Positions 48,804 to 61,778 of a stretch of 64,000 bases of DNA are shown here, piece by piece. A model generated the notes under the pieces. It saw nothing but the letters and a program-made list of their open reading frames with translations. It was not told where the DNA came from and searched no databases. The stretch comes from an uncultured Opitutia bacterium (GTDB lineage Bacteria > Verrucomicrobiota > Verrucomicrobiia > Opitutales > Opitutaceae): assembly GCA_903873805.1 (NCBI GenBank), contig CAIQQB010000186.1, positions 1-64,000 of the forward strand, in the 5' to 3' direction. How positions within the stretch are numbered: position 1 is the first letter of the stretch; each line of letters starts with the position of its first letter. Position numbers and translations under genes: made by a program.

Positions 48804-49616
48804 TCAGGTTTCGGCCAGCTCGGCGGACTGGCTCTCGGCGGCGACCGACTCCGCCTCCTCGGGCATGGGGAAATCGCGGACGAAATCGGCAAACTGGATG
48901 AGTTCAAAGCGGCCGTCATGGTGTTCCACGATGGCCGTGAGGGACTCGACCCAGTCGCCGGAATTCAGATAATGGATCCCCCCCACCTGCTGGTCGGCTG
49001 GAGTGTGGATATGGCCGCAGATCACGCCGACGCAGCCGCGATCGCGGGCGAGCCGGGCGATATGGCCTTCGAACTTGGAGACGTGGTTGACGGCGCTTTT
49101 CACCCGGCCCTTGATGGCCCGGCTCAAGGACCAGTATTCCTTGCCCCGCCAGGTCCGCCAGGCGTTGTAGGCGCGGTTGAGCCGCAGCAGCATCTGGTAA
49201 CCCCAGTCGCCGAGGTGGGCGAGGAAGGCGAAGTTCTTCGTGATGGTGTCGAACACGTCGCCGTGGAGGACCAAATACCGGCCGCGCGCGCCCTCGTGGA
49301 TGTGCTCCTCCACGATGACGAGGTTCTCAAACTCGAGCGGCAGAAATTTGGCGAGAATGTCATCGTGGTTGCCGCGCAGATATACCACCTGCGTGTCACG
49401 CTTCTCCAGTTTCTTGAGGACGATCCGGATGAACCGCGTATGGGCCTTGCTCCAGTTGCCACCGCGCACAAGCTGCCAGCCGTCGATGATGTCGCCGTTG
49501 AGGATGAGCTTCTCGCAGCGGACGTGGCGGAGAAAATGGTTGGCCTCGCGAACCTTGCTGTCGGGCGTGCCGAGGTGAACGTCGGACAGGATGACGGTGC
49601 GGACGTGAAGTTTCAT
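48804..49616 (-). CDS. plcP: PlcP-like calcineurin phosphoesterase (phospholipase C of phosphate starvation)
   Basis: A 270-residue metallophosphoesterase with all metal motifs: Asp12-Val-His14, GDIID (41-45), GNHDD (82-86), LHGD (117-120), and GHIH (201-204). The segments KEYWSLSRAIKGRVKSAVN and NSGDWVESLTAIVEH match, from memory, rhizobial PlcP, a phospholipase C that removes the headgroup of phospholipids under phosphate limitation, rather than the lipid A enzyme LpxH for which such proteins are often named. Context supports this: two glycosyltransferase genes upstream, with a 4-bp overlap, and Pho-box-like repeats before the operon. Expected product: diacylglycerol for glycolipid synthesis. 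Confidence 0.72.
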   Translation of the reverse strand: MKLHVRTVILSDVHLGTPDSKVREANHFLRHVRCEKLILNGDIIDGWQLVRGGNWSKAHTRFIRIVLKKLEKRDTQVVYLRGNHDDILAKFLPLEFENLVIVEEHIHEGARGRYLVLHGDVFDTITKNFAFLAHLGDWGYQMLLRLNRAYNAWRTWRGKEYWSLSRAIKGRVKSAVNHVSKFEGHIARLARDRGCVGVICGHIHTPADQQVGGIHYLNSGDWVESLTAIVEHHDGRFELIQFADFVRDFPMPEEAESVAAESQSAELAET

Positions 49617-50857
49617 GGCGGGAAAAGGGCGGGGTTGGCGCCGATCGGTTCGGGGTCGGGAAGCCCGGGCAGGCTGCCGCCAGCGGGGGTGGCGAGCACC
49701 CGTCGTGCGATCTCCCGGGCGGCACCGGTGCGGGCCAGCGGCGCCAGGGCGGAACGCCAGGCCTGCCAAACCCGCCCCCGGTCGGCGAAGGCCCGCCAGA
49801 GCGCGGCGATGATGGCCTCGGGGGTCTCGGCCAGCGCCCCGACCCCATGCCGGCGCAGCAGCTCGTAGTTGCCCTCCTCCTGGCCGGGCACGATCTGGTT
49901 GACGATCATCGGGCAGCGGGCGGCGATGGCCTCCTGGGTGGTGGCGCCGCCCGCCTTGCTGACGACGGCGTGATGGGTCATCAACAGGCGCGGAATCTGA
50001 TCGGTCCAGCCGAGGATCTGCGCCGGCCGCGCTCGGCCCGCCGCCAGCGCGCAAAGCCGGCGGCGGAGCCGTTCGTTCCGGCCGACAGCGAACGTGACCT
50101 CCCAGTCGGATTCGGCCAGGAGCCGGCGGGCGGTGGCCTCGGCGTGACGGTTGCCGGAGTGGATGATGCAGAGCACCCGGGGGGCTGGGGCGGGACCGGT
50201 GGCGGCAAGGTCCGGCGGAAACAGCTCGTCTTCGTGCGCGTGAAAGAAGGAGTGAACGGGAAAACCACACACCTGCACGCGGTCCGGCGGGAGGCCGGCC
50301 TGGAGGAGCACGTCGGCCGAATCCTCGTTGGGCACGAACCAGCCGTCACAAGGCGCGCGCCACCAGAGAGAGTGGATGCTGATCGAGTCGGTGACGACAT
50401 TGTAATGCGGGACCGTGGGCAGGCCGGACCGCGCCAGCCGGGCGAGCAGGTAGGCGTAGATCGGGTAGGTGCTGAGGACCACGCGGGGCCGGTCGCGTTG
50501 GAGAAGCATGGCGAGCAGACGCTGTTCGCGGCGCAACAGGAGGCCGAAGGACTGTGTGACCAGCGCCGAACGGTCCATCCAGGCGTAGGTGTGGCGCCAG
50601 AGCTGCGGGGCGTGGTTGATGAGGCCGAGGTAGGCCCGCCGGCTCAGGGCGTTCAGCCGCGGCGCGGCCAGCGCGAACACATCCGCCACCGGCGCGGAAC
50701 CGGGACCGGCCTCCGCCTCGACCGCGGCCGCCAGGGCGCGGGCGGCGGCGTTGTGCCCCTCCCCGAAACCGGCGGTGAGAATCAGCACCCGCGCGGTGCG
50801 GGAACGTTCAACATCCAGCGGATCGGCCGTGGCGCACGTTGTAATGGGGGGGCTCAT
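49613..50857 (-). CDS. MGDG-synthase-like GT28 glycosyltransferase (diacylglycerol glycosyltransferase candidate)
   Basis: A 414-residue GT-B protein. ILTAGFGEGHNAAARALAAAVE (about 24-45) is the G-x-GH-x-x-AA motif of the MGDG synthase N-domain (PF06925), LNALSRRAYLGLINHAPQLWRHTY follows, and the donor domain has TDQIPRLLMTHHAVVSKAGGATTQEAIAARCPMIVNQIVPGQEEGN (about 300-345), the MGDG/MurG-type donor site with PGQEEGN typical of lipid glycosyltransferases. It most likely puts a hexose on diacylglycerol at the inner membrane. Located 2 bp after the GT4 gene and overlapping plcP by 4 bp. Confidence 0.82.
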   Translation of the reverse strand: MSPPITTCATADPLDVERSRTARVLILTAGFGEGHNAAARALAAAVEAEAGPGSAPVADVFALAAPRLNALSRRAYLGLINHAPQLWRHTYAWMDRSALVTQSFGLLLRREQRLLAMLLQRDRPRVVLSTYPIYAYLLARLARSGLPTVPHYNVVTDSISIHSLWWRAPCDGWFVPNEDSADVLLQAGLPPDRVQVCGFPVHSFFHAHEDELFPPDLAATGPAPAPRVLCIIHSGNRHAEATARRLLAESDWEVTFAVGRNERLRRRLCALAAGRARPAQILGWTDQIPRLLMTHHAVVSKAGGATTQEAIAARCPMIVNQIVPGQEEGNYELLRRHGVGALAETPEAIIAALWRAFADRGRVWQAWRSALAPLARTGAAREIARRVLATPAGGSLPGLPDPEPIGANPALFPP

Positions 50858-50859
50858 GG

Positions 50860-52059
50860 TCAGGCGGGCGCGACCGGCGCAGGAGATTGGGCGGAAGGTG
50901 TAGTCTGATCGAGGGAGGTTGGAGATTCGCAGCCCGCGGCGGCGGCGGCGAGGTCGGCCTCGAAACGGCCGATGACATTTTCCCACGACTGGGTTGCCAC
51001 GGCGGCGCGGGCGGCGGGACCAAGACGGGCGCGCAGCGGCGCCTCGGTGGCGAGGCGCACTGCGGCGGCGATGAACTCAGCGGGCCGGTCGCACGGCACG
51101 GTGAGCCCGTTTTCACCGTGGCGGACAAACTGGCGGGCGGCGGCGTAATCGAAACCGGCGACGGCCAGTCCGCTGGCCATCGCTTCCGTCAGCACGTTGC
51201 CAAACGTTTCCGTGAGGCTGGCGTGCACATAGATGTCGGCCGAGGCGTAGTGCCGGGCAAGCTCCTCGCGGGGCACAAAGCCGGTGAAGGACGCCCAGGG
51301 GTGGGCGCGTTGCAGGCCGGCGCGCAGCGGGCCGTCGCCGACCAGCACGAACTGGCAGCGCGGGTTGGCCGCGCGCATCGCGGCGAAAGCGCGGAAGAGC
51401 AGGGGGTAGTTCTTCTCGGCCGCAATCCGGCCGGCATGAAACACCACCGGATCGGCCGGCGCGGCCCCCCACGCGACCCGCTGCAGGGAGGAGCGACGGC
51501 CGGGGTCGAACTGGCGCGTGTCCACACCGCGCGAGAGGACGGCGAGGTTTCGGAACCCGAACCCTGTCAGTTCGGCGCACAGCTCCGGGGTGGGGGCGAA
51601 GGTGCGCCGGGTGCGGTTGTGGACATGCCGGAGCCACCCCAGTGCCAGTCGGTGCAGCGGGGCGAAGCCATAGTGCCGGGTGTAGGCGTGAAAGTTCGTG
51701 TGGAAGCTCGAGGTGACGGGAATCCGGAGGGCCCGGGCCGCGCTGACCGCGGAGGCGCCCAGCGGGCCCTCGGTGGCGACATGCACGAGATCGGGGCGGT
51801 CCGCGCGCCAGGTCCGGCGCAGTCGGCCGCCCGCCGGCAACCCGAGGCGCAGCAGCGGATAACCGGGCAGCGGCAGACCGGGCAGGGGGACCTCCCGGAA
51901 CTCCGGGTGGGCGGCGTCGCCGGGCAGGTCGGACCGGTTGGGCCGGTACACCGTCACCGCCTGGCCCCGCCGTCCCAGTTCCCGGGCGATGACGCCGAAA
52001 GTCATCGCCACGCCGTTGATTTCGGGCGGAAAGGTTTCGGTGACGAGGGCGAGTTTCAC
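50860..52059 (-). CDS. GT4 glycosyltransferase (MgtA/SqdX/Agt-like, glycolipid type)
   Basis: A 399-residue GT-B protein. LALVTETFPPEINGVAMTFGVIA and LVHVATEGPLGASAVSAARALRIPVTSSFHTNFHAY are typical of the subgroup with MgtA mannosyltransferases and SQDG synthase SqdX; VVFHAGRIAAEKNYPLLFRA (about 215) and LTETFGNVLTEAMASGLAV (E-x7-E, about 300) complete it. Agt, the GT4 enzyme next to PlcP in alphaproteobacteria, makes glycolipids under phosphate starvation, so this gene is the likely partner. The start is GTG 52059; ATG 52064 is out of frame. Confidence 0.82.
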   Translation of the reverse strand: MKLALVTETFPPEINGVAMTFGVIARELGRRGQAVTVYRPNRSDLPGDAAHPEFREVPLPGLPLPGYPLLRLGLPAGGRLRRTWRADRPDLVHVATEGPLGASAVSAARALRIPVTSSFHTNFHAYTRHYGFAPLHRLALGWLRHVHNRTRRTFAPTPELCAELTGFGFRNLAVLSRGVDTRQFDPGRRSSLQRVAWGAAPADPVVFHAGRIAAEKNYPLLFRAFAAMRAANPRCQFVLVGDGPLRAGLQRAHPWASFTGFVPREELARHYASADIYVHASLTETFGNVLTEAMASGLAVAGFDYAAARQFVRHGENGLTVPCDRPAEFIAAAVRLATEAPLRARLGPAARAAVATQSWENVIGRFEADLAAAAAGCESPTSLDQTTPSAQSPAPVAPA

Positions 52060-52111
52060 GGCATGGTGGGCGCGGCGGTGCGGCGAGGCTGACGCAGGCT
52101 GGCAGCGCCGG

Positions 52112-52151
52112 ATGGCGATCCGGTGACGATCCGGTGACGATCCGGTGACAA
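52112..52151 (-). promoter_or_regulatory. Tandem Pho-box-like 11-bp repeats before the glycolipid/plcP operon
   Basis: On the minus strand TTGTCACCGGA, TCGTCACCGGA, TCGTCACCGGA and a weaker TCGCCAT follow each other at exactly 11-bp steps (starts 52151, 52140, 52129, 52118). This is the period and close to the core of the PhoB box half-site (CTGTCAT plus four bases). It ends 53 bp before the GTG of the first gene. The -10 is not clear: CAGCCT lies 10 bp after the last unit. Confidence 0.6.
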
Positions 52152-52237
52152 TCCGGCCAAATCCGCGCCGGTCGCCTTTTTTTGAATTGGGGATTGCGCT
52201 GGGGCGGCCGAATTCTACTTTCCGTCTTTTTACCCGC

Positions 52238-54868: not shown

Positions 54869-54934
54869 CTGTCATGAAATGGAACGCGGTTAATCACCCG
54901 TTCGTAACCTGACCGTCACGGGATTGTAACAATT
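54869..54934 (+). promoter_or_regulatory. Extended Pho box upstream of the porin-pst genes
   Basis: Units spaced exactly 11 bp: CTGTCAT (54869, identical to the E. coli half-site), two weak units at 54880 and 54891 (the latter TAATCAC), then TCGTAAC (54902), CCGTCAC (54913) and TTGTAAC (54924). The last two form an 18-bp box whose end (54930) is 10 bp before CATTCT (54941), the distance expected for a PhoB-activated -10. Start codon of the porin follows at 55015. Confidence 0.65.
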
Positions 54935-55014: not shown

Positions 55015-56391
55015 ATGGCTATCAACTCCCTCAAACGGCTGGCGCTGCTCGGCAGCGTGGCTATCGGCCTGGCCCTCCCGGCCCGCGCCCAGGACAGCGG
55101 ACCCCTGCTCGACCTCCTCGTCAAGAAGGGCATCGTCAACGATCAGGAGGCGGAGGATATCCGCGCCGCCCTGGTCAAGGACTTCGCCGCCAACACCTCG
55201 GCGGGCAAGCTCAACCTCAGCCCGGCGCTGACCGAATTCGCGTTGAGCGGCGACATGCGTCTCCGCGAACAGTTTGAGACGCAGCGCACCATCGCGGTGC
55301 CCGGCACCGCTTCGGTGGCCAACGAGCGGGAGCGGGTGCGCCTGCGCTTCCGCCTCAACGGCGACCTCAAGCTCCAGAGCGGCTGGGGCGCGGGTTTCTC
55401 GCTGCAAACCGCGCAGAACGCCGACTCCGCCAACCAGACCCTCGATAACATCGGGACCAACTACGGCATCTATCTGGCCCGGGCCTATGTATCCTACCAG
55501 CCCAGCCTCAACTGGTTTTTCACCGGCGGGAAATTCAAGAACCCGTTTTTCACCACCGATCTCGTGTGGGACGCGGACATCAATCCCCAGGGGTTTGCCG
55601 AGACCCACACCACGTTTCTCAACGGCAAGGACACCTTCGAGGTGCGCGCGGGCCAGTTGGTGATGAAGGATAACGCCGAGGCCATCGCCGCCGGCGCGGC
55701 GCCCACCACAGGCGTCGATGCCTGGCTGTTTGACCAGCAGCTGGTCTACACCAAATGGTTCGGCGCGGAGAACCTGAGCGACGTGCTTTTCGCCCCCGGT
55801 TTCATGTTCTACAACGCGTCGACAATCACCTCACAGGTGAGCGGCACCAACAAGGAGCAGGCCTACAACGGCAGCACCAAGTACCTCAAGATCGTCACCC
55901 TGCCCGGCGAAGTGAATTTTGCCAATATCTACGGCACGGGCACCCAGCTCAAGACGTACTGGGATTTCACCTATAACACCGCGGCCAACGACCGCGCCCA
56001 CCAGTCCGTCGCCAATGGCGGCTACGGCCTCCCCGCGACCACCAACAAGGGCGCCATGTCCTGGCTCGTCGGCCTCGGCTACGGTTACGGCCAGGGCAAG
56101 AACAAGGGTGATTACAGCCTCAAGGCCGATTACCGCCAGACCGGCATTTCCGCGCTCGATCCGAACATCACCGATTCCGACTTCGCCTTCAACCGCCTCA
56201 ACCAGAAAGGCTACAAGTTCTCCGGCTCCTACAACCTCACGGATTTTGCCAGCCTAACGGTTACTTACTTCATCACCTCGCGCCTCAACGATTCGATCAA
56301 CACCAAGGCCCCGGCCTTGGCGGCGGATCCCACTCTCAGCGACCTTAACAGCACCAACACGCTGCAGGTCGACCTTAACGTGAAGTTCTAA
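55015..56391 (+). CDS. Outer membrane porin (Porin_5-type), likely phosphate-regulated
   Basis: A 458-residue protein with a signal peptide (about 1-25, ending LPARAQ). A short N-terminal helix (DLLVKKGIVNDQEAEDIRAALVKD, about 29-54), a coiled or SLH-like segment seen in such porins, precedes a beta-rich body with alternating strands such as LSGDMRLREQF, ERERVRLRFRLNGDLKL and LARAYVSYQPSLNWFFTGGKF, ending NTLQVDLNVKF with a terminal Phe, the usual outer membrane signal. It lies 27 bp before pstS, with Pho-box repeats upstream, so it probably admits phosphate or phosphate esters; selectivity is inferred. Confidence 0.8.
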   Translation: MAINSLKRLALLGSVAIGLALPARAQDSGPLLDLLVKKGIVNDQEAEDIRAALVKDFAANTSAGKLNLSPALTEFALSGDMRLREQFETQRTIAVPGTASVANERERVRLRFRLNGDLKLQSGWGAGFSLQTAQNADSANQTLDNIGTNYGIYLARAYVSYQPSLNWFFTGGKFKNPFFTTDLVWDADINPQGFAETHTTFLNGKDTFEVRAGQLVMKDNAEAIAAGAAPTTGVDAWLFDQQLVYTKWFGAENLSDVLFAPGFMFYNASTITSQVSGTNKEQAYNGSTKYLKIVTLPGEVNFANIYGTGTQLKTYWDFTYNTAANDRAHQSVANGGYGLPATTNKGAMSWLVGLGYGYGQGKNKGDYSLKADYRQTGISALDPNITDSDFAFNRLNQKGYKFSGSYNLTDFASLTVTYFITSRLNDSINTKAPALAADPTLSDLNSTNTLQVDLNVKF

Positions 56392-56418
56392 CCCCCAGAC
56401 CGCCCAACTCCCACTCCC

Positions 56419-57240
56419 ATGAAAAAATCCATCCTGTTCGCCCTCGCCGCCCTGGCCGCCACCGGCGTCGCCCACGCGCAAAAGCTCGTCATCAAGGGGT
56501 CCGACACCCTCGGGGCGAAACTCGTGCCGACCCTCGCCGAGGAATACAAGGCCAAGCACCCCGGGGTCTCGTTTGAGATCGCCGCCGAGGGCTCGACCAC
56601 CGGCATCAGCGCCATCATCGACGGCACCGCCCAGATCGGCATGTCCTCGCGCCGCGCCAAGCCGACCGAGATGTCCGCCGCCCAGGCCAAGGGCGTCAAC
56701 ATGAAGCCGACCATCGTCGCCTACGACGGCATCGGGATCATTGTGAACGAGAAATGCCCCGTGGCCAAGCTCACCAAGCGCCAGATCGAGCAGATCTTCG
56801 CCGGTGATATCACGGACTGGTCCGCCGTCGGCGGTCCGGCCGGCCCGATCTCGATCTACACCCGCAACACCTCCTCCGGCACGTATTCGGACTTCAAGGA
56901 CCTCGCGATGAACAAGCGCGACTACGCCCCGTCGTCCCAGAAGATGGCCGGCAACGAGCAGATCGCCGCCGAGGTCGCCAAGAACGTGAACGGCATCGGC
57001 TACGTCGGCCTCGCCTACATCACGGATCCCGGCATCAAGGCGGTCGCGGTTGATGTGGAAGGAGTCGCGCTGCTCCCCAGCAAGAAGACCGTGCTCGACA
57101 AGACCTATCCGTACGCCCGGCCGACGTTCTACTACACGAACGGCGAGCCCACGGGCGAGGCGGCCAAGTTCCTCGAGTTCACCCTCAGCGACGAGGGCCA
57201 GGCCATCGCCAGCAAGATCGGCTTCGTCCCGCTCAAGTAA
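56419..57240 (+). CDS. pstS: Phosphate ABC transporter substrate-binding protein
   Basis: A 273-residue periplasmic protein with signal peptide MKKSILFALAALAATGVAHA (1-20). The phosphate site segments are LVIKGSDTLG (about 23-32), EGSTTGISAI (about 57-66), QIGMSSRRAK and RNTSSGTYSDF (about 152-162). These match the short PstS family that donates phosphate to PstCA. It ends 105 bp before pstC, with a terminator in between, which fits the usual excess of binding protein over permease. Confidence 0.92.
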   Translation: MKKSILFALAALAATGVAHAQKLVIKGSDTLGAKLVPTLAEEYKAKHPGVSFEIAAEGSTTGISAIIDGTAQIGMSSRRAKPTEMSAAQAKGVNMKPTIVAYDGIGIIVNEKCPVAKLTKRQIEQIFAGDITDWSAVGGPAGPISIYTRNTSSGTYSDFKDLAMNKRDYAPSSQKMAGNEQIAAEVAKNVNGIGYVGLAYITDPGIKAVAVDVEGVALLPSKKTVLDKTYPYARPTFYYTNGEPTGEAAKFLEFTLSDEGQAIASKIGFVPLK

Positions 57241-57247
57241 CGGGCGG

Positions 57248-57265
57248 TTGTCACGCCAATGTCAC
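57248..57265 (+). promoter_or_regulatory. Pho-box-like pair between pstS and pstC
   Basis: TTGTCAC (57248-57254) and ATGTCAC (57259-57265) are 11 bp apart, as in a PhoB box, and sit directly after the pstS stop. No -10 is visible 10 bp downstream, and a terminator follows at once, so it may not work as a promoter. Confidence 0.4.
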
Positions 57266-57267
57266 CG

Positions 57268-57305
57268 GGGCCCGCTTGACCGACCGTCAGCGGGCCCTCC
57301 TTTTT
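57268..57305 (+). terminator. Rho-independent terminator after pstS
   Basis: A perfect 9-bp stem (GGGCCCGCT, 57268-57276, with AGCGGGCCC, 57289-57297) with a 12-base loop is followed by TCCTTTTT (57298-57305). It should cut part of the transcript so that pstCAB are made at lower level than pstS. Confidence 0.88.
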
Positions 57306-57345
57306 AGCCGCCTTCCAATCCGGTTTCCGTCCGGTCCGCACTGCC

Positions 57346-58947
57346 ATGCCGTCCGCCCCCCCCGATCCGCCGTCACCGTTTCCCATCACCAAGGCGCGCA
57401 CGCACCTGCTGGGGTTGACCTTTGACGAATGCATCCAGGTATTCTTTGGCGGCAACGCCGTCATGGCGGTGGTGATTCTCGGGTTGATCACCTTCTTTCT
57501 TTTCAAGGAGGGGGCCAGTTTCTTCGGCCAGAACCGGGAAAACCTCACCGTCTACCGCCGCGCCGGTCTCGAGTATGTCGATTTCATGCGCCAGCAGGAG
57601 CAGGATCACACCGCGCTCACGCGCTACCTGTCCGACCTGCGCCTCCGCACCCTCCAGCACCTGACGGGCCCCGGCGGGCTCACGCTCGCCGCCGCCAACA
57701 CGCAGCTCGCCCCTTTTGACGAATTTGCCAACCGCTACAGCGATGCGGTAGTGCCCCTGCGCGGGTTTGTCTCCGACCTCACCGATGTCGCCACGGCGAT
57801 CAAGACCAAGTTCATCGTGATGGGGGACAATAAAACCCAGCGAGAACAGCTCCTCGGTGCCGGCAAGACCGCCGAAGCCGCCGCCGTGGTCATCACTCCG
57901 GTCGACTTCAAAGCGGAGTTGGCCCCCCTCGTCGGCACGCTGCCCGCCTACCGCGACCTGAGTACGGCGTTTGCCAAAAGCCTGACCGAAGCCATCGCTT
58001 CCCCGCCCAAGCTGCCGACGCCGGAGCTGCAGGCGCGGATGGAGCGGTTCCGCGCGTTGACTCAGCAATATCTGGTGTCTTTTCCAGCCACCCTCAAGAA
58101 CCTCGAGTCCTGGGACTACCTCAAGCCGGTTCCGGTGTGGCAGGCGTTCACCGCGTTCCTCTTCGGCAAGGACTGGCTCACGGCGAGTTTCTGGCAGGAT
58201 TGGTATGGCATCGTCCCGCTCTTTGTTGGATCCCTGCTCGTATCCGTGATCGCCCTGCTGCTCGCGGTTCCGCTCGGGGTGGGGGCGGCTATCTACGTCA
58301 ATCAGATCGCGAGCCCGTTGGAACAGCGGCTGATCAAGCCCTCGATCGAGTTCATCTCGGCCATCCCGTCGGTCGTGCTCGGCTTCTTCGGCATCGCCGT
58401 GTTGGGTGAGGCCCTGCGCGCCCTGTCGCACGTGACCTGGCTGAGTTGGGTGCCCGGCTTCCCTTTTGCCGAGCGGCTCAACGCCCTCACGGCGGGGTGC
58501 CTACTGGCCCTCATTGCCGTGCCCACCATCTTCACCCTGGCGGAGGACGCGCTTAACAACGTGCCGCGCTCGTTCAAGGAGGCGTCGTTCGCCCTCGGTG
58601 CGACCCGGCTCCAGACCGTCCTGCGCATCATTGTGCCGGCTTCGCTCTCCGGCATTGTCTCCGCCGTGCTGCTCGGGCTGGGTCGCGTGATCGGTGAGAC
58701 GATGGTGGTGCTCCTCTGCGCGGGCAACCGCATTGCCAGTCCCGATTTCACCGCCGGACTCGGGGTGGTGACCCAGCCGGTCCACACCATGACCGGTATC
58801 ATTTCGCAGGAAATGGGCGAGGTCGTGCGCGACAGTATCCAGTATCGCGCCCTGTTCGTCGTGGGCATCGTGCTCTTCTTCCTTGCGTTGCTGATCAACT
58901 TCCTCGCTCAGAAAATCGTGCGGAAATACCGCATTTCGATCGGCTGA
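57346..58947 (+). CDS. pstC: Phosphate ABC transporter permease PstC with large periplasmic insertion
   Basis: A 533-residue protein, far longer than the usual 300-330. Helix 1 is at about 35-55 ([15 protein letters not shown]), followed by a 210-residue soluble region (about 60-270) with helical, charged segments, then the permease domain with [45 protein letters not shown], and the EAA-type loop [30 protein letters not shown] (about 400). The insertion lies between helix 1 and the transport domain, in the periplasm. Partner PstA follows after 8 bp. Confidence 0.9.
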
Positions 58948-58955
58948 CCCGTCCC

Positions 58956-60101
58956 ATGAACCCGGTTCAACACCCGTTTACGGCGCGTAAAAATCGCAGC
59001 CGCGCTCTGGAAAAGCTCACGTTCTGGCTGTTCCGTCTGGCCACCTATCTGGTGCTGGCCTGCGGCTTTTTTGTCTTCGGCAACATATTCATCAAGGGTG
59101 CCGGCACCGTGTTCAAAAAGAGTTTCCCCTTTGTGAACACGGTCTTCCTCACCGAGGCGCCGGAATCGCTCTACGTCTTCACCTATCAGGGCACCAAGAT
59201 GGAGCTGGGCGACCGGGACTACCGGGCCTTTCGCGCCGCTGAGGAAGCCAGGGCGAAGGCGGCCGGCCAGCCGGTCCCGCAGTTCAATGCCGAAAGCTAC
59301 GTCTATTCCGCCGGCGGCATCTTCCCCTGCATCGTCGGCACCGTGCTGCTGGTGGTCGGCTCCATGGCCATCGCGCTGGTGCTCGGCGTCTGCGCGGCCA
59401 TCTACCTCAACGAATACGCCCGCGACGGCCGCTTCATCCGCTTCGTCCGCCTCTCCATCCTCAACCTCGCCGGCGTGCCTTCGATTGTCTTCGGCCTCTT
59501 CGGCTTCGGCCTCTTCGTGCTGTTCGCCCCGCGCCTCGGGGTGGCTCCCGATCCCGAGAAGTGGCATTTCCGCCTCTGGCCGCTGCATCAGTATGTCAAT
59601 TTCGTCGGCTGGGGCGTCTCACTTATTTCAGGTTGGTTCACCCTGGCGTTCATGGTGCTGCCGGTGATCATCACCGCCTCCGAGGAGGCGCTCAAGTCCG
59701 TCCCGCGCGGTTTCCGCGAGGGCTCGCTCGCGCTCGGGGCCACGAAATGGCAGACCATCCGCAAGAACGTGCTGCCCTACGCCCTGCCGGGCATCCTCAC
59801 CTCGTCCATCCTCGGCATCGCCCGCGTCGCCGGCGAGACCGCGCCGATCATGTTCACCGCCGCGTTTGTGGTGCGCGACAAGCTGCCGTGGGAGGGCCTC
59901 GACCACTGGACCGACTTCTTCTTCCAGGGCGTCATGGCGCTGCCCTACCACATCTACGTGGTCTCCTCCAAGATTCCCCAGAACGAATACACCGCCCGGG
60001 TGCAATACGGCACCGCCTTCGTCTTCCTCTTTCTGGTCGCCGTCATCGCCCTGGCTTCGATTCTGCTCCGCAACCGGCTCCGCAAACGCTACCAATGGTA
60101 A
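58956..60101 (+). CDS. pstA: Phosphate ABC transporter permease PstA
   Basis: A 381-residue protein. Helix 1 is at about 25-48; an insertion of about 75 residues (about 50-125, with [31 protein letters not shown]) precedes the permease domain [51 protein letters not shown], and [37 protein letters not shown], the ATPase-coupling loop (about 240-275). It ends 4 bp past the first candidate start of pstB (overlap 60095-60101). Confidence 0.92.
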
Positions 60102-60955
60102 CCGCCCCCACTTCCGCCGCGCCCATGGAAAACACCGCCGCCCCCAGCACCCTCACGATCAAGGTCCCGGGCGCGCCCGCGGCCGACCCCGGCGTGGCGT
60201 CCACTCTCATCGAGATCAGCGATCTCGACTTCTACTACGGCGCCAAGCAGGCCCTCTTTGATGTCAATCTCCGGCTCGACGAGAAACGTGTCACCGCCTT
60301 CATCGGTCCGTCCGGCTGCGGCAAGTCCACGCTGCTCCGCTGCCTCAACCGCATGAACGACCTCATCGACGGCACCGCCATCCGCCGCGGCGCGATCAAG
60401 GTCCGCGGCATCGACATCTACGGTGCCGACGTCGACCCGATCGAGCTGCGCAAGCGGGTCGGGATGGTCTTCCAAAAGTCCAACCCGTTCCCCAAGTCCA
60501 TCTACGAAAACATCACCTACGGCCTTCGCATCCAGGGCGTGCGCAGCAAGACCCGGCTCGACGAGGTGGTCGAGCGCTCCCTCCGCGGAGCCGCGCTCTG
60601 GGACGAGGTCAAGGACCGCCTCCACGAAAGCGGCCTCGGCCTCTCCGGCGGCCAGCAGCAGCGCCTCTGCATCGCCCGCACTATCGCGGTCGAGCCCGAG
60701 ATCATCCTGATGGACGAGCCCTGTTCCGCCCTCGACCCCATCGCCACCGCCAAGGTCGAGGAGCTCATCCATGCGCTGAAGAAGCAGTTCACGATCATCA
60801 TCGTCACCCATTCCATGCAGCAGGCCGCCCGGTGCTCCGACAAGACCGCATTCTTCTACATGGGCAAGCTGATCGAATATGCCGACACCAGCACGATTTT
60901 CATGAATCCCGCCAACCCCCAGACCGAAGCCTATGTCTCCGGTCGGTTCGGCTGA
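60095..60955 (+). CDS. pstB: Phosphate ABC transporter ATPase
   Basis: A 286-residue protein. Walker [10 protein letters not shown] (about 71-79), Q-loop [19 protein letters not shown], signature [13 protein letters not shown] (about 185), Walker [13 protein letters not shown], and switch His in [14 protein letters not shown]. The fifth-last segment [17 protein letters not shown] is typical of PstB. An N-terminal stretch of about 40 Ala/Pro/Thr-rich residues precedes the domain; ATG 60125 would shorten it. Powers PstCA-mediated phosphate import. Confidence 0.94.
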
Positions 60956-61044
60956 CCGACGCGGCCAGTAGCGAGCAGCGGGTAGCGAGGAACGAGCATC
61001 CCAAACCATCAATTCAAGCACCGTCTATCCGCCTCCTCCGATTT

Positions 61045-61078
61045 CCGTTTTTCAGCGTTTCAGTTTTTCAGCTTTTCC
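61045..61078. repeat. TTTTTCAG-type direct repeats before phoU
   Basis: The pstB-phoU gap (145 bp) holds a run of TTTCAG units (CCGTTTTTCAG, CGTTTCAG, TTTTTCAG, CTTTTCC) after an AGTAGCGAGCAGCGGGTAGCGA stretch. Both are simple, repeat-like sequences of the kind spread through the spacers of this window. Nothing resembling a promoter was seen. Confidence 0.5.
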
Positions 61079-61100
61079 TTCCTTCTTCCGCTTTCCAACC

Positions 61101-61778
61101 ATGACCCGTTTTTTCGACTCCGAACTCGAGACCTTCCGCTCCAGCCTCATTCTGATGGGGGAGACCTCGATCCGCCAGGTCCGCGATGCCCTCACCGCCC
61201 TGGTCGGGGCCGATATTGCGCTGGCCGACCGCGTCATCGCCGCCGATGACGAGATTGACCGCCTCGAGATCCGGATCGATGACGAGGCCATCCGCTACAT
61301 GAACCTGCGCGCCCCCGTCGCCACCGAGCTGCGCCTGGTGATCGTCGGCATGAAGGCCTCCCATGACCTGGAGCGGGTGGGGGATGAGGCCACCAGCATT
61401 GCCCGGCGCGCCGTCAAGCTCGCCTCCGAGCCCGCCCTCAAGCCCTACGTGGACATTCCCCGCATGGCCACCATTGCGATTGAGATGCTGCGCGACGCCA
61501 TGGACTGCTTTCTCCAGGTGGATGCCGAGAAGGCGATTGCGGTGATCAAGCGCGACTCCGAGGTCGATGCCATCAACCGCCAGCTCTACCGGGAGCTCAC
61601 CAGCTTCATGATTGAAAACCCCGCCACGATCAGCCGCGCGCTGGAGCTCATGTTCATCTCCAAGTCGATCGAGCGCATCGCCGACCACGCCTCCAACATC
61701 GCCGAGGAGATGGTATTTCTCGCCCAGGCTCGCGATATCCGTCACTCCGATGGCTTGAAGAAAAGCGGTGACCTGTGA
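61101..61778 (+). CDS. phoU: Phosphate signalling complex protein PhoU
   Basis: A 225-residue helical protein with two PhoU repeats: LILMGETSIRQVRDALTAL...AADDEIDRLEIRIDDEAIRYMNLRAPVATELRLVIVGMKASHDLERVGDEATSIARRAV (about 15-105) and AMDCFLQVDAEKAIAVIKRDSEVDAINRQLYRELTSFM...LMFISKSIERIADHASNIAEEMVFLA (about 125-215). The E/D-x-x-x-D metal clusters ERVGDEA and ERIADHA are intact. PhoU links the Pst transporter to the PhoR/PhoB system; neither phoR nor phoB is in the window. Confidence 0.93.
   Translation: MTRFFDSELETFRSSLILMGETSIRQVRDALTALVGADIALADRVIAADDEIDRLEIRIDDEAIRYMNLRAPVATELRLVIVGMKASHDLERVGDEATSIARRAVKLASEPALKPYVDIPRMATIAIEMLRDAMDCFLQVDAEKAIAVIKRDSEVDAINRQLYRELTSFMIENPATISRALELMFISKSIERIADHASNIAEEMVFLAQARDIRHSDGLKKSGDL

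Follow-up and report, generated by a model that had tools for sequence, protein, structure and literature searches.

What does a packed group of genes for two glycosyltransferases and a phosphoesterase do in an uncultured Opitutia bacterium, and is it switched on when phosphate runs short? The group occupies positions 48804-52059, on the minus strand, of contig CAIQQB010000186.1 (GenBank assembly GCA_903873805.1), whose first 64,000 nucleotides were analysed and are called the window below. A preliminary description had read the three genes, headed by Pho-box-like repeats, as a lipid-remodelling operon in a probable verrucomicrobial genome. The coordinates agree with the tight packing that it reported: the order is GT4, GT28, phosphoesterase, with a 2-bp gap between the two glycosyltransferase genes and a 4-bp overlap (ATGA) between the GT28 and phosphoesterase genes. 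The nearest named relatives of the genome are Opitutaceae, in line with a verrucomicrobial origin. Judged from sequence comparisons, the group is very probably an operon with which an Opitutaceae-like verrucomicrobium remodels its lipids during phosphate starvation. The operon and the repeats upstream of it comprise the following features.

50860..52059, minus strand: Agt-like GT4 glycosyltransferase, 399 amino acids, first gene of the operon, GTG start at 52059 (Pfam domains, similarity to Agt1)
49613..50857, minus strand: predicted GT28-type diacylglycerol glycosyltransferase of the MGD1/UgtP type, 414 amino acids (Pfam MGDG_synth, motifs)
48804..49616, minus strand: PlcP-type metallophosphoesterase, predicted phospholipase C, 270 amino acids (tree and identities)
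52112..52151, minus strand: Pho-box-like direct repeats of four 7-bp units with an 11-bp period, lying 53-92 bp ahead of the GT4 start

The phosphoesterase and the two glycosyltransferases

The preliminary description had assigned the phosphoesterase to PlcP rather than to LpxH or LpxI and had named in advance a phylogeny as the analysis that could overturn this assignment. In a tree of 69 PlcP-like and LpxH proteins, LpxH formed its own side on a long branch (support 100/99), whereas the window protein stood with all PlcP-like proteins on the other side, within a subclade of Verrucomicrobiota and Bacteroidota sequences (100/100), and the assignment held. The protein is 46% identical to a Pseudomonas aeruginosa protein encoded next to a glycosyltransferase gene in a plasmid-borne block, which from its gene content we take to be PA3219-PA3218 (plcP-agt1), and 39% identical to a Sinorhizobium meliloti homologue, a PlcP candidate encoded beside acyl-homoserine-lactone synthase and LuxR genes and presumably SMc00171, a characterised PlcP; its identity to Escherichia coli LpxH is 21%. 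All seven metal ligands of the di-metal metallophosphoesterase fold (D12, H14, D42, N83, H118, H202, and H204) are invariant in the alignment. The motif GNHDD, where LpxH has GNRDF, and the motif GDWVES are both unlike LpxH. When the window genome was queried with PlcP, the operon gene was the only copy found, and the next-best metallophosphoesterase match was ApaH-like. The identification of a PlcP-type enzyme is well supported, with a phospholipase C activity predicted from homology.

PlcP-family genes were also seen in plasmid records, among them those in the block similar to P. aeruginosa plcP-agt1, and are labelled there as UDP-2,3-diacylglucosamine diphosphatase. Record NZ_CP137508 and two more P. 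aeruginosa plasmid records carry, flanking genes included, what appears to be the plcP-agt1 block of the chromosome. A plasmid record of Parabacteroides distasonis shows a Bacteroidota version, with overlap between a PlcP-like gene and one for a glycosyltransferase not recognisable as a GT4 Agt. Because the plasmid-record genes are labelled as lipid A genes, public annotation probably understates how common lipid remodelling is.

The evidence also supports the earlier claim that the operon encodes two lipid glycosyltransferases from different families, an Agt-like GT4 and an MGD1/UgtP-type GT28, with activities and sugars predicted from homology. The first product contains Glyco_transf_4 and Glycos_transf_1 domains above the Pfam cut-offs, and its E-x7-E motif reads ETFGNVLTE. 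It is 33% identical to P. aeruginosa Agt1 (about 130 bits), compared with no more than 58 bits to the 23 other GT4-type frames in the genome; the converse is true as well, Agt1 being closer to the window GT4 than to those other frames. Outside Verrucomicrobiota, its best BLAST similarities are glycosyltransferases adjoining plcP, Agt1 included. It appears to be an Agt-like lipid glycosyltransferase, for which diacylglycerol would be the acceptor. Several further GT4-type genes lie at 8429-38179 on the minus strand of the window, probably within a polysaccharide cluster.

In the second product, Pfam MGDG_synth scored 76 bits against a cut-off of 25, and the operon gene gave the single match to PF06925 in the window genome. 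The protein matches plant MGD1 (E 6e-26) and a processive diacylglycerol beta-glucosyltransferase (E 5e-25), and the GxGH and GQExxN motifs align. The mechanism of GT28 enzymes is inverting. With this in GT28 and a retaining mechanism in GT4, as is stated for the Agt group (PMC8231724), GT4 would form an alpha linkage and GT28 a beta linkage, the latter possibly with several sugars, and two glycolipid classes may be made; these linkages, and any assignment of the first sugar, or of a mono- and a diglycosyl product, to one or other of the two enzymes, are predictions.

Pho-box-like repeats and the porin-pst-phoU operon

The 11-bp repeats that had been described ahead of the lipid operon read, on the minus strand, TTGTCAC cgga TCGTCAC cgga TCGTCAC cgga TCGCCAT. 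The next gene upstream of GT4, on the far side of the repeats, is a divergent SNF2 helicase gene. Its start is most likely ATG 52238, where MQSHGPKRVYTP is kept in relatives, so the repeats are placed in the intergenic region between the two divergent genes. About 3 kb from the lipid operon, a porin-pstS-pstC-pstA-pstB-phoU operon (55015-61778, plus strand), which is absent from the preliminary description, is preceded by matching repeats (TCGTAAC ctga CCGTCAC ggga TTGTAAC).

54891..54930, plus strand: Pho-box-like repeats ahead of the porin-pst operon that match those at the lipid operon (pattern scans of window and genome)
55015..56391, plus strand: porin, Porin_5 (Pfam Porin_5, 110 bits)
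56419..57240, plus strand: pstS, phosphate-binding protein (TIGR02136 above cut-off)
57248..57265, plus strand: Pho-box-like repeat of two units in the pstS-pstC gap (13/14 matches, tied for best two-unit site in the window)
57346..58947, plus strand: pstC (TIGR02138 above cut-off)
58956..60101, plus strand: pstA (TIGR00974 above cut-off)
60206..60955, plus strand: pstB, start approximate (TIGR00972 above cut-off, residues 217-464 of frame 59561-60955)
61101..61778, plus strand: phoU (TIGR02135 above cut-off)

The porin is probably an anion or phosphate porin, a role read from its position. This neighbouring operon is among the strongest pieces of context evidence for a link to phosphate. Within it, the two-unit repeat in the gap between pstS and pstC suggests a separate promoter for pstCAB.

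The Pho box is quoted as CTGTCATNNNNCTGTCAT in PMC8528852, and its 7+4 geometry matches the repeats found here. Measured against 7-bp units every 11 bp (CTGTCAT-N4-CTGTCAT), the period and a YYGTMAC-like core are present, and the strict E. coli unit is not distinctive. The window was scanned for triples of the degenerate unit YTGTMAY spaced 11 bp (maximum score, 21), with six dinucleotide-preserving shuffles as a control. The two top sites, each scoring 19/21, were those upstream of GT4 and of porin-pst; the next best site scored 17, which was also the peak in shuffled sequence, and the repeats exceed chance expectation in the window. Across the 3.78-Mb genome, three perfect sites for YYGTMAC x3, a pattern composed, like YTGTMAY, after the window sequence had been seen, were located: the two operon sites and one more, close to dnaA and ispG (G000:C120:20115-20143) and probably incidental. 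A site on contig C73 with two mismatches, whose neighbours include an ISL3 transposase gene and a frame resembling a response regulator, was also set aside as probably incidental.

Relatives carried the repeats at the same places. Triple scores of at least 16 occurred upstream of GT4 in 30 of 45 regions, compared with 23 of 1125 windows drawn at random from the same loci, and ahead of the porin in 13 of 13; they occurred upstream of the inner GT28 gene in 0 of 37 and upstream of the divergent SNF2 gene in 0 of 24, all counts whose significance is overstated by the kinship among the sequences. The first and inner genes differed in this way inside the same genomes as well. In silico, the earlier proposal of a Pho-type regulated cluster thus gains sites common to the operon and pst and kept in relatives.

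The matching repeat sites suggest that the two operons are co-regulated, and PhoB-type control acting through the repeats at both may be inferred. At low phosphate, a PhoB-type regulator would bind the 11-bp repeats and switch on the lipid operon and porin-pst-phoU together. PlcP would then cleave phospholipids of the membrane, releasing diacylglycerol and a phosphorylated head group that is recycled, and GT4 and GT28 would move sugars from nucleotide sugars onto diacylglycerol, giving phosphorus-free glycolipids.

Gene clusters in Verrucomicrobiota

The comparison of plcP neighbours that the preliminary description had proposed was run across Verrucomicrobiota. Of 100 genomes of the same family, 77 encoded PlcP, as did 87 of the 289 in the phylum sample. 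Among 40 same-family loci, the commonest order was GT4-GT28-DAGK-PlcP (12 loci; DAGK, diacylglycerol kinase), followed by GT4-DAGK-PlcP and PlcP alone (7 each); the window order, GT4-GT28-PlcP, was found at 6 loci and at one more where the GT4 match is split, and GT4-PlcP-GT28 and PlcP-GT28 also occurred. Opitutus sp. GAS368, Cephaloticoccus, and Geminisphaera colitermitum are among the named genomes that have the cluster. These sequences show that Opitutaceae in general have kept the cluster, frequently with a diacylglycerol kinase gene between GT28 and plcP.

The extra gene encodes a DAGK_cat/YegS_C lipid kinase. Loci with the kinase gene between GT28 and plcP include L036-L040, L043, L045, L047, L050, L061, L063, and L064; the window operon is without it, and the only diacylglycerol-kinase/YegS-type gene of the window genome lies elsewhere (G000:C180:1805-2170) and encodes a protein 51% identical to the operonic kinase. 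In the many relatives with an in-cluster kinase, the enzyme probably converts surplus diacylglycerol back to phosphatidate.

Elsewhere in the phylum, the arrangements GT4-plcP-phoU, plcP directly after pstCAB-phoU, and plcP before pstSCAB-phoU were found. In other verrucomicrobial families, plcP stands inside or beside pst-phoU operons at L120, L124, L126, and L127, with two copies of this kind in genome G111. A single open frame of roughly 650-760 codons encodes both GT4 and PlcP in Akkermansiaceae, Rubritalea, Persicirhabdus, and some relatives (loci L105, L108, L109, L115-L118, and L134; L200, L203, L205-L207, L209, L213, L226, L236, and L241). The fusion members of group f7 form one clade of the PlcP tree (98/93), which is consistent with a single fusion event. 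A further candidate fusion, in L121, was ruled out: its long frame is a GC-rich read-through, with GT4 in a different frame. Homologues in Bacteroidota belong to the same PlcP branch and have different neighbours. Possibly, although we hold this somewhat below even expectation, Verrucomicrobiota have a distinct version of remodelling, in which the Opitutaceae operon combines a retaining GT4, an inverting GT28, and PlcP, commonly with a diacylglycerol kinase leading toward phosphatidate, and the GT4::PlcP fusion of the Akkermansiaceae-Rubritalea lineage passes diacylglycerol on directly. A search of the window genome for BtaA (betaine lipids) found none; an OlsB-type acyltransferase is encoded in it.

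Alternative explanations and known systems

Public homologues of the phosphoesterase carry an LpxH-type annotation, under which the protein would be a UDP-2,3-diacylglucosamine hydrolase and the cluster would serve lipid A or lipopolysaccharide synthesis. A weak similarity to LpxH was measurable, with 44 bits for PRK05340 and 24 bits for TIGR01854, scores far under the respective curated cut-offs, 134 and 190 bits, and a PDB search for a solved PlcP matched only a distant LpxH (E 7e-5). The window genome encodes LpxI separately, so that the lipid A step is covered, and the Pho-box-like sites and pst neighbours speak against a lipid A role. Because of these points, together with the placement on the PlcP side of the tree, the ligands, motifs, and identities, and the single PlcP copy, the LpxH/LpxI identity was rejected, and we consider an LpxH-type hydrolase extremely unlikely. 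The operon could also make constitutive glycolipid anchors or other glycolipids, the repeats being incidental, in the way that UgtP-type enzymes of Firmicutes make lipoteichoic acid anchors regardless of phosphate. This is very improbable in view of the repeats at the lipid and pst operons, which recur besides at one seemingly incidental site and are kept in relatives at first and not inner genes, and of the plcP genes lying within pst-phoU operons in other parts of the phylum.

A different alternative keeps Pho control and diacylglycerol release by PlcP but gives one glycosyltransferase an acceptor other than diacylglycerol, with GT4, for example, acting on phosphatidylglycerol or extending the glycolipid of GT28. 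UgtP and other lipid glycosyltransferases are known to work processively in two steps, and the best NCBIfam match of GT4 is GlcN-phosphatidylglycerol synthase, although its 126 bits fall far short of the cut-off of 480; the tree, moreover, does not settle whether GT4 and the proteobacterial Agts are strict sisters. The similarity to Agt1, a diacylglycerol-using enzyme, argues the other way, and the occurrence in many relatives of GT4-plcP without GT28, or of the GT4::PlcP fusion, fits direct use of the product of PlcP. We regard this alternative as unlikely, if credible.

The tree placement and NCBIfam match of GT4 belong to a set of observations that weigh against phosphate-controlled remodelling with diacylglycerol as the acceptor. 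GT28 scored 166 bits against a cut-off of 500 for the NCBIfam equivalog "diglucosyl diacylglycerol synthase" and by curated cut-off is a relative, and not an orthologue, of UgtP. To our knowledge, the Verrucomicrobiota-Bacteroidota branch of PlcP has no characterised member, so the substrate range of the window enzyme is a prediction. A PhoB profile search of the genome returned nothing over the curated cut-off (best candidate, on G000:C178, 241 versus 296 bits). A scan with the strict E. coli unit CTGTCAT ranked neither the GT4 nor the pst site first, and because of this and the post hoc choice of unit, independent support for the repeats comes from the relatives, with the overstatement noted for their counts.

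A phosphate-responsive remodelling operon would have precedents, as lipid renovation by PlcP and a GT4 Agt is established in P. aeruginosa (PMC8528852), Pelagibacter (PMC4796936), Agrobacterium, and Methylosinus. PlcP-Agt remodelling has so far been worked out almost only in Proteobacteria; PlcP was reported in a verrucomicrobium single-cell genome in 2015. The preliminary description had seen its most novel point in a GT28 gene beside plcP, a claim that is weakened by the B. subtilis-type (UgtP-type) diacylglycerol glycosyltransferase gene next to plcP in type Ia methanotrophs (PMC9239053) and by the occurrence of plcP with polyglycosyl-diacylglycerol transferases in marine bacteria (PMC4796936). 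A literature search that reached few subscription journals returned no paper on remodelling by this cluster in Verrucomicrobiota, on plcP with a diacylglycerol kinase, or on a glycosyltransferase-PlcP fusion. The GT4+GT28(+DAGK)+PlcP group as a conserved Opitutaceae unit with sites matching pst, and the GT4::PlcP fusion, appear to be previously undescribed. With an Opitutaceae-wide operon, plcP across Verrucomicrobiota, and close homologues in Bacteroidota, the trait becomes testable in soil, freshwater, and host-associated lineages, and the fusion offers a direct test case for substrate channelling from a phospholipase to a glycolipid synthase.

Several known systems share parts of the operon. 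The phosphate islands of HIMB59 (PMC10734472) bring together a glycosyltransferase, a diacylglycerol kinase, an "LpxH", and pst; they are alphaproteobacterial, and in the passages of that account consulted the "LpxH" is not identified as PlcP and a lipid role is not discussed. UgtP/YpfP and plant MGD1 share their family and conserved motifs with the window GT28 but are not known from plcP operons in their organisms. Type Ia methanotrophs have a predicted UgtP-type glycosyltransferase near plcP but no agt beside plcP, and are not verrucomicrobial (PMC9239053). The plcP-agt pairs of Pelagibacter HTCC7211 and Methylosinus and the Agt of Agrobacterium represent PlcP with one GT4 Agt, phosphate-responsive in those organisms, whereas GT28 or a diacylglycerol kinase is not described in their gene pair. 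P. aeruginosa PlcP-Agt1/Agt2 (PA3219, PA3218, and PA0842; PMC8528852) resembles the window system in its homologous PlcP, an operon with an Agt-kind glycosyltransferase, a Pho-box-like repeat, and two lipid glycosyltransferases. Both of its glycosyltransferases, however, are Agt homologues and Agt2 is unlinked, whereas in the window the second enzyme is a GT28 encoded within the operon, the gene order is reversed, with a glycosyltransferase gene first and plcP last, and the operon adjoins pst.

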